A stretch of DNA of 60,207 nt from Desulfobulbaceae bacterium (lineage in GTDB: Bacteria; Desulfobacterota; Desulfobulbia; Desulfobulbales; Desulfobulbaceae). The translations under genes were made by a program, and so were the position numbers. Below the pieces are notes generated by a model that saw only the letters and a program-made list of their open reading frames with translations, was not told where the DNA came from and did not search any database. Below are positions 41,248-43,753 of the stretch, piece after piece. Position 1 is the first letter of the stretch. Each line of letters begins with the position of its first letter. The stretch is from NCBI GenBank assembly GCA_023544645.1, contig JAMJFO010000016.1, positions 1-60,207 on the forward strand, written 5' to 3'.

Positions 41248-43047
41248 ATGGACCAGCAGAAAATACGCAACGTAGCCATTATCGCCCACGTTGACCACGG
41301 AAAAACCACCCTTGTCGATCAATTATTCAGGCATAGCGGCATGTTTCGCGACAACCAGCAGGTTGCCGAACGGCTGATGGATTCAATGGATCTGGAGCGG
41401 GAACGCGGCATCACCATTTCCTCCAAAAACGGCTCGTATACCTACAAAGATTATCATATCAATATCATTGACACCCCGGGCCATGCCGATTTCGGCGGCC
41501 AGGTGGAACGGGTCCTGCGCATGGCTGACGGCGCCGTCCTGCTTGTCGATGCCCAGGAAGGCCCCATGCCCCAGACCTTTTTTGTGGTTAAAAAAGCCCT
41601 GGCTGCCAACCTGCCTATCCTGGTGGTCATCAATAAGATCGACAAACCGGGCGCACGGTGCGAGTGGGTGGTTGACCAGGTCTTTGACCTGCTTGTCCGC
41701 CTCAATGCTCCGGAAGAAACCCTGGACTTCCCGGTTGTCTATGCCTCGGCCAAGGAAGGTTATGCCATCAGCGACCCGAAAGATCCGATAACCGCCCAAC
41801 CCGGCATGACCGTGATTTCAGACATGATCGTCAACCATGTGCGGCCGCCTTCAGGTTCACCCGACCTGCCTCTGCAGCTGCAGATCAATACCATCGACTA
41901 CTCGCCCTACCTGGGACGGCTGGGCATCGGCAAACTGGTCAACGGCAGGATCAGCATCAACACCAATGTTGCGGTGGCCCGGCGGGACGGCTCCATCAAA
42001 CCCATCCGCATCACCAAAATCTTCGGGTTCCAGGCCGACCAGCAGATACCCATTGAATCGGCAACCACCGGTCAGATTGTCGCGGTGGCTGGCATGGACG
42101 ACGTCACCGTCGGCGTCACCTTTACCGACCCGGATGATCCCAGACCGCTGCCGCTCATCCAGATCGATCCGCCGACCATTTCGATGAACTTTATCCCCAA
42201 TGACTCGCCATTTGCCGGGCAGGACGGCAAATTTGTCACCTCCCGCCACCTTGAGGACCGGCTCAACCGGGAAACCCTGGCCGATGTCGCCCTGCAGGTG
42301 GAGCAGTTAACCGACAGCATCGGTTTCCGGGTATCCGGCCGCGGGGAGCTGCATCTCTCCATCCTCATCGAAAAAATGCGCCGCGAAGGCTATGAGTTTC
42401 AGGTTACCCGGCCCACGGTCATAATGAGAGAAGAAGACGGCAAAACCCTGGAGCCCTATGAAGAGCTGACCGTCGACGTTGATGAACAGTACCAGGGCGT
42501 GGTCATTGAAAAACTGGGCAAGCTCAAAGGAATTCTCCTGGACCTGCAGATTGAGAACCAGATGGCCAAAATGAAATTCAAGGTGCCCACCCGCGGCCTG
42601 CTGGGCTACCGGTCCCAATTCATGACCGACACCCGGGGCATGGGGGTCATGAACTATGTTTTTGCCGAATGGGGGCCCCATGCCGGAGAGATACAAAACA
42701 GGCAGAACGGAGTCATGGTGGTCAAGGAGCCCTGCACCACCGTTGCTTACGCCCTGTTCAACCTTCAGGACCGGGGCCAGCTGCTCCTGGGGCCGGGAAT
42801 CAAAGTGTATCAGGGGCAGATCATCGGCGAACACTGCCGGACCGCTGATCTGGTCGTCAATCCGGCCAAGGGGAAAAAACTGACCAACATGCGCGCTTCC
42901 GGCTCCGACGAGGCGGTTATTTTAACCCCGCCCCTTGACATGAGCCTGGAAGATTGCATAGCATATATAAATGATGACGAACTTGTCGAAATCACCCCCG
43001 CCGCCATCCGACTGCGCAAGAAAAAAGACGCGAAAATCCGGGGGTAA
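41248..43047 (+). CDS. typA: Ribosome-associated translational GTPase BipA/TypA
   Basis: A translation-factor GTPase that binds 70S ribosomes and aids 50S maturation and stress adaptation. G1 AHVDHGKTT, G2-region RERGITISSKNG, G3 DTPGHADFGG and G4 NKIDKPGA are intact; EF-G-like domains and the BipA-specific C-terminal domain (SLEDCIAYINDDELVEITP) follow. ATG 41248 (MDQQKIRN) is the family start with GAGAG upstream; the longer in-frame start would lie within the terminator hairpin. 599 residues. Confidence 0.95.
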   Translation: MDQQKIRNVAIIAHVDHGKTTLVDQLFRHSGMFRDNQQVAERLMDSMDLERERGITISSKNGSYTYKDYHINIIDTPGHADFGGQVERVLRMADGAVLLVDAQEGPMPQTFFVVKKALAANLPILVVINKIDKPGARCEWVVDQVFDLLVRLNAPEETLDFPVVYASAKEGYAISDPKDPITAQPGMTVISDMIVNHVRPPSGSPDLPLQLQINTIDYSPYLGRLGIGKLVNGRISINTNVAVARRDGSIKPIRITKIFGFQADQQIPIESATTGQIVAVAGMDDVTVGVTFTDPDDPRPLPLIQIDPPTISMNFIPNDSPFAGQDGKFVTSRHLEDRLNRETLADVALQVEQLTDSIGFRVSGRGELHLSILIEKMRREGYEFQVTRPTVIMREEDGKTLEPYEELTVDVDEQYQGVVIEKLGKLKGILLDLQIENQMAKMKFKVPTRGLLGYRSQFMTDTRGMGVMNYVFAEWGPHAGEIQNRQNGVMVVKEPCTTVAYALFNLQDRGQLLLGPGIKVYQGQIIGEHCRTADLVVNPAKGKKLTNMRASGSDEAVILTPPLDMSLEDCIAYINDDELVEITPAAIRLRKKKDAKIRG

Positions 43048-43102
43048 CCCTGCGGCAACGGACAGAATTTCCGCTCAGCCAAAAACCGGGAGGAGGTGAA
43101 TA

Positions 43103-43264
43103 ATGAAGGAATTTGCCTTGATCGCCATTGCCTTTCTGGCGGCAATAGGGGCTTTTTTTCTTCTTTCGAGGAAAAGCGGCGAAGATTGCATTCCCTGACT
43201 GCTCATCTATGGATCCCTCGGGGTGGGGATCGTCGTCTATGCCGTGCTCAACTACTTTTTCTAA
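43103..43264 (+). CDS. Putative small membrane selenoprotein with CxxU motif
   Basis: The ORF starts at ATG 43103 behind AGGAGGTGA (43091-43099), a near-perfect ribosome site. It encodes 31 residues with a TM segment (FALIAIAFLAAIGAFFLL), then a charged loop SRKSGEDCIP, then UGA at 43196-43198. The same frame stays open for 21 more codons with a second hydrophobic segment (LLIYGSLGVGIVVYAVLNYFF) and ends in TAA at 43262. Reading UGA as selenocysteine gives a 53-residue protein with C-I-P-U, the redox CxxU pattern. A hairpin 13 bases after UGA fits a bacterial SECIS. If UGA is a stop, this is a 31-residue peptide or a decayed gene. Confidence 0.55.
43199..43231 (+). promoter_or_regulatory. SECIS-like hairpin after the in-frame UGA
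   Basis: GATCCC (43212-43217) pairs perfectly with GGGATC (43226-43231) around the loop TCGGGGTG, which contains the GGU expected in SelB-binding loops. The loop lies about 20-27 bases after UGA, within the spacing normally seen for bacterial SECIS elements. Confidence 0.5.
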
Positions 43265-43321: not shown

Positions 43322-43753
43322 CTAACCTTCTTTGTCTTTTTTACTGAAGTAGTCTGCCAGGATCCTGGCATGATCAAAAACCAGGTCGGGAAGATTGTCC
43401 CGGGTGAAAACTTCAGCCCGCGCAGCATCATCGCCCCCTTGCGGCCTGCCGGAAGCACTGCCGATGAATACCGTTGATGCCGTATGCTGCCGCGGATCAC
43501 GATCCGGCTCCGAATAGGTATGGAACTGTTCGACCAGGGCAACCTCAAGGCCGGTTTCCTCCCGGGCCTCGCGTACCGCGGCCTGTTCAAATGATTCGCC
43601 ATAGTCAACAAATCCGCCGGGCAGGGCCCAGCCCAGGGGAGGATTCTTCCGCTCGATCAGGACAATCCCGTCCGCAACCTCGATGATCACATCCACCGTG
43701 GGCACAGGATTTCTAAAATACGGGAGGTCCGCTCCGCACCGGGAACACTTCAT
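43322..43753 (-). CDS. NUDIX hydrolase with N-terminal zinc ribbon
   Basis: A nucleotide-diphosphate-derivative hydrolase. The Nudix box is complete: [18 protein letters not shown] followed by REETGLEV. The N terminus [15 protein letters not shown] supplies one CxxC of a half zinc ribbon, as in the NudC/ADP-ribose pyrophosphatase-like groups. Substrate unknown. It follows the HAD gene by one base, so the two are translationally linked on a minus-strand unit. Confidence 0.9.

Follow-up and report, generated by a model that had tools for sequence, protein, structure and literature searches.

A very probable new family of bacterial selenoproteins with two predicted membrane helices

A 60,207 bp stretch of Desulfobulbaceae DNA (the window) carries a short gene that is best explained, and with high probability, as a member of a genuine, previously undescribed family of bacterial selenoproteins. 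Comparison with its relatives indicates that the product is almost certainly a selenoprotein, and orthologues with the same architecture are present in more than 200 genomes.

The gene and its surroundings

The gene occupies 43103-43264 (+ strand, TAA included) and encodes 53 residues when its internal TGA is read as selenocysteine (Sec, U): MKEFALIAIAFLAAIGAFFLLSRKSGEDCIPULLIYGSLGVGIVVYAVLNYFF. A Shine-Dalgarno sequence read from the DNA (AGGAGGTGA, 43091-43099, + strand) precedes the ATG at 43103-43105, and 85 of 104 relatives have a similar motif ahead of their start codon. The start is followed by 31 codons (ATG included), an in-frame TGA as codon 32 (43196-43198, + strand), 21 further codons and the final TAA (43262-43264), all exactly where the initial annotation had placed them. 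The first hydrophobic helix (approximately residues 4-22; 43112-43168, + strand) is indicated both by an AlphaFold2 model and by hydrophobicity in the family alignment, and the second, which contains the most conserved part of the protein, follows the Sec codon (43199-43261, + strand). At the N-terminal end of this second helix lies a C-I-P-U motif (Cys29 and Sec32; 43187-43198, + strand). The initial annotation had taken this motif as a sign of a redox selenoprotein; it is indeed present, but as evidence on its own it is near chance, since the window contains, by mechanical count, 75 in-frame TGA codons that have open flanks and a Cys at a distance of two or three residues. As the hairpin downstream of the TGA is also unremarkable when taken as a single sequence (below), the significance of the locus rests on its relatives and not on the window sequence.

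The typA/bipA gene (41248-43047, + strand; TIGR01394, 845 bits) ends 55 nt upstream of the ATG, and from this spacing and the shared strand the two genes are probably co-transcribed. A Nudix-like gene lies downstream on the opposite strand (43322-43753, - strand).

Distribution and conservation across the UGA codon

In searches for the 53-residue translation, the gene, with TGA at the same codon, turned up in six of the seven genomes of the genus and in about 58 of the 74 genomes of the family, and the strong matches from these searches have exactly one internal stop, a TGA at that codon. A profile search of the order then gave homologues in 213 of 258 genomes and 59 of 69 genera (these same 258 genomes make up the sample of the class). 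In a phylum-wide sample of 395 genomes, the gene was found only in members of the order and in one genome of another family (G296), so by sequence search this selenoprotein family is essentially restricted to one bacterial class; plasmids searched for the family gave no match. Some genomes have the Sec machinery without the gene (for example, G001, G013, G190, G220, and G221), and three others (G161, G148, and G253) have two or three matches to it each, those of G161 including two of identical score on different contigs.

The full-length alignment comprises 104 distinct members. All 104 contain CxxU and 99 of them CxPU, the Sec codon is followed by a sequence with the consensus LLxYGSxGVGLxxYxxLK, and in all 104 a stop comes 21-25 codons on. 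Among all strong placed homologues, only two lack the single in-frame TGA at the Sec position. Nucleotide identity over 510 pairs is 69% from the Sec codon to the final stop and 28%, approximately the chance level, in the next 60 nt, from which it follows that the stretch 3' of the TGA is coding; the initial annotation's expectation that homologues would remain similar beyond the TGA is thus borne out across the 213 genomes. On both sides of the TGA pN is lower than pS, with pairwise dN/dS saturated.

A SECIS-like hairpin within the coding region

The hairpin reported in the initial annotation is present as described, with a GATCCC/GGGATC stem that begins 13 nt after the TGA (43212-43217 paired with 43226-43231). 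This stem has 6 bp, or 7 bp when the closing U-G pair is counted; in the latter form the element spans 43212-43231 (+ strand), with stem strands at 43212-43218 and 43225-43231 and a G-rich loop CGGGGU (TCGGGGTG) at 43219-43224. Published rules for bacterial SECIS elements (bSECIS) call for a position 16-37 nt after the UGA, a G within the first two loop positions, and an energy of -7.5 or lower (PMC13188914). A bSECIS check, as the initial annotation had suggested, places the window hairpin (7 bp, CGGGGU, 20 nt after the UGA, -9.2 kcal/mol) within these rules. Most members have an 8-bp stem and an AGGU-type loop, likewise 20 nt after the UGA, and relative to them the window register is shifted by one, giving its 7 bp and its CGGGGU loop.

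Taken alone, the window hairpin is no more stable than dinucleotide shuffles of its sequence (z = +0.76). Across the family, 83 of the 104 sequences conform to the bSECIS rules, compared with 8.9 +/- 3.1 under synonymous codon resampling. Stem pairing is 92.8%, compared with 86.5 +/- 0.5% in shuffles that preserve every protein sequence and the codons of each column (0 of 2000 were as high), a significance that is inflated by the non-independence of related sequences. One stem pair formed by third codon positions covaries, being CG in 50 sequences, AT in 17, TA in 8, and GC in 3; protein constraint does not explain this variety of pair types, since it does not act on these third positions.

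Selenocysteine machinery

The genome from which the window comes encodes SelA, SelB (378 bits), tRNA-Sec (74 bits), and two SelD proteins, so that all of the sel genes for which the initial annotation had proposed a check were found. The two selD genes of this genome (G000) lie at C98:54936-55865 (L189) and C76:36095-37021 (L188); one of them has an in-frame TGA and probably encodes a Sec-containing SelD, and the other has no such TGA. Over the order, the small selenoprotein gene and SelA are jointly absent from 19 genomes, where 7.8 would be expected (Fisher p = 1e-5, in a sample that includes draft genomes and search misses). The clearest case is genus g12 of the window's own family: tRNA-Sec, SelA, and the gene are all absent from five of five draft genomes (G060-G064), an apparent loss of Sec use. 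Five complete genomes that bear the gene (G114, G118, G127, G128, and G171) gave no SelA match and were considered as counter-evidence, but all five have tRNA-Sec, and the SelA absences are therefore probably search misses. Two genomes of the same class, G044 and G136, have two tRNA-Sec genes each, the second of them lower scoring (58-60 bits).

Cysteine forms

The initial annotation had pointed to Cys-containing orthologues as something to look for, and these exist, in only two genomes of a single genus. When genomes with weak or no matches were searched again with a wider profile, two members of the selenoprotein family without any stop emerged, both in genus g52; their motif reads CPAC (G219) and CPMC (G218), the codon at the Sec position being TGC in both. 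Downstream of the gene, mtnA follows after 15 nt in G218 and after 0.67 kb in G219; mtnA is also a neighbour of many Sec forms in other families. In a tree built from few columns, which allows broad placing only, the two Cys forms cluster together and are nested among Sec forms, and this grouping suggests a single Sec-to-Cys change. A bSECIS search of the two Cys genes gave no such hairpin.

Cys forms are thus very rare, two genomes against about 200 with Sec, whereas known selenoprotein families usually include many. Scanning of 84,980 species genomes for the pattern CxPC[LM][LM][MLI]Y[GS]S yielded no true Cys member; its sole match (L072) is not a member of the family and resembles a CXXCH cytochrome gene read on the opposite strand. 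Because the YGS part has diverged in the G218 and G219 forms, which would themselves escape the scan pattern, there may be other Cys forms.

Decoding of the UGA codon

Two other accounts of the UGA need to be weighed. If it were an ordinary stop, the product would be a 31-residue peptide with one helix and the conserved 3' stretch would be regulatory RNA or otherwise non-coding; a single in-frame TGA followed by a stable hairpin might suggest this, as terminators and attenuators can look similar. Yet the stretch beyond the TGA is maintained as protein (YGSxGVGLxxY), in frame and without indels, the +1 frame is open in none of the 104 members and the +2 frame in 35, and the frame closes after its 21-25 codons at a stop that may be TAA (43 members), TGA (35), or TAG (26), where conservation also ends. 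The two Cys orthologues, moreover, read straight through, and an ordinary stop appears extremely improbable. Read-through with a different residue, by Trp insertion or near-cognate suppression, would likewise conserve the downstream frame, but it does not agree with the exchange of Sec for Cys, the CxxU context of every aligned member, the SECIS geometry and covariation, the complete set of sel genes, or the joint loss, in genus g12, of the gene, tRNA-Sec, and SelA, and we consider it very improbable. In the preferred reading, SelB and tRNA-Sec would decode the UGA at 43196-43198 as Sec, directed by the hairpin within the coding sequence 20 nt downstream.

Relationship to known selenoproteins

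NCBIfam (June 2026 release), Pfam, and PHROG gave nothing above curated cut-offs, only sub-threshold matches to membrane helices, and no relative by sequence was found in the PDB. In the open-licence literature, none of the 119 families of a 2026 catalogue is recognisably the same family (PMC13188914), and nearly all of the families credited there to Haft and Tolstoy 2025 have NCBIfam models. The deep-Sep study covered 20 bacteria, two Desulfosediminicola genomes included, and the two-helix selenoprotein is not among its new families; its authors state that all known selenoproteins seem to possess Cys homologues and that their method may drop selenoproteins without them (PMC12013277). Absence from the libraries and catalogue checked is probably due to the open reading frame of only 31 codons before the UGA and to the near lack of Cys homologues. 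The family is in this respect a near-exception among selenoproteins, and more such families may therefore be hidden. It would add to the bacterial selenoproteome a new two-helix membrane family present in more than 200 species.

With the CxxU selenoproteins (SelW-like, GrdA, AhpD-like, and CMD-like; PMC13188914 Table 1) it has in common a UGA-encoded Sec, a downstream bSECIS, and the CxxU redox motif, but these belong to other domain families. The putative mercuric transport selenoprotein MerT (PF02411) is likewise a membrane protein, with C/SxxU, but there is no sequence match, and PF02411 is absent from the family-library matches of the selenoprotein. MerT has a three-helix fold and a mer operon context, both of which are lacking in the two-helix family. 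SELENOK and SELENOS are very small eukaryotic membrane selenoproteins; they span the membrane once, carry Sec outside it and close to the C terminus, and have their SECIS in the 3'-UTR. They are alike only as tiny membrane selenoproteins, and no relationship to the two-helix family is expected. In thioredoxin, a CxPC motif stands where a helix begins; CxPU is similarly placed at a helix start here, with Sec at the position of the second Cys, but the thioredoxin fold is absent and the helix that follows the motif is predicted to be transmembrane.

Predicted topology and possible function

The AlphaFold2 model has two helices, the first at residues 2-24/28, with a break at approximately residues 25-29; its mean pLDDT is only 71-75 and, for this reason, its secondary structure alone was used. 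Among family members the turn between the helices has on average 2.25 Lys or Arg residues, compared with 0.6 at the N terminus and 0.8 in the C tail. By the positive-inside rule this enrichment predicts that the turn is cytoplasmic, and the CxPU motif should therefore cap helix 2 at the inner face of the membrane.

The gene immediately upstream is typA in 76 of the 104 relatives. Linkage to typA was considered as a clue to function and dropped, as other lineages have mtnA beside the gene, downstream of it; within part of the family, a few nucleotides separate the gene from a downstream one whose large product matches no NCBIfam model. As the neighbours differ between lineages, they indicate no pathway.

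The most likely function, which we consider somewhat more probable than not, is that of a putative membrane-anchored thiol-selenol redox switch, a redox role being the default for CxxU selenoproteins (PMC13188914). The 53-residue product would form a helical hairpin in the inner membrane, as the sequence and the moderate-confidence model suggest, with C-x-P-U capping the start of helix 2 and facing the cytoplasm, as expected from the Lys/Arg-rich turn. Cys29 and Sec32 would cycle between the selenol/thiol and selenenylsulfide states, and could mediate electron exchange of a cytoplasmic thiol reductant with an acceptor carried in or bound to the membrane, such as a quinone, a lipid hydroperoxide, sulfane sulfur, or a partner protein; any particular substrate is a poor bet.

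Metal binding and membership in a larger complex are the main functional rivals of such a switch. The protein might be a selenoprotein that handles Hg, Cu, As, or Se in the membrane, with CxPU as a metal or metalloid ligand like that of small Mer-type transporters; CxxC or CxxU at the end of a membrane helix is a typical soft-metal site, and the mercuric transport family (PF02411, C/SxxU) has a catalogued Sec form (PMC13188914). However, no Mer family is matched, no metal genes are found among the conserved neighbours, and presence in nearly the whole class suggests housekeeping and not detoxification, so we think this unlikely. The protein could instead belong, as a small accessory subunit, to a larger membrane complex of respiration or sulfur metabolism, in which Sec would serve as an electron relay or assembly tether. 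Restriction to one class of bacteria favours such a role, helix 2 is conserved and rich in Gly, which suggests that it packs closely against another helix, and small subunits of respiratory oxidases have a similar size and two-helix form, but conserved linkage to any complex is lacking and we view this proposal with doubt.

Returning to the redox switch, a broader and speculative version of it is that the protein may serve nearly all of one class as a membrane selenol carrier, linking cytoplasmic thiols to the quinone or sulfane-sulfur pool, in which Sec would be almost irreplaceable. If true, this would be an as yet undescribed type of selenoprotein activity, and the family in any case raises the question of class-wide use of a selenol at the membrane face. 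One Sec-containing member, in G257 (L170, about 2501-2635, - strand), has G-R-P-U and is without the otherwise invariant Cys; the absence of this partner argues against an obligatory selenenylsulfide in the G257 protein.
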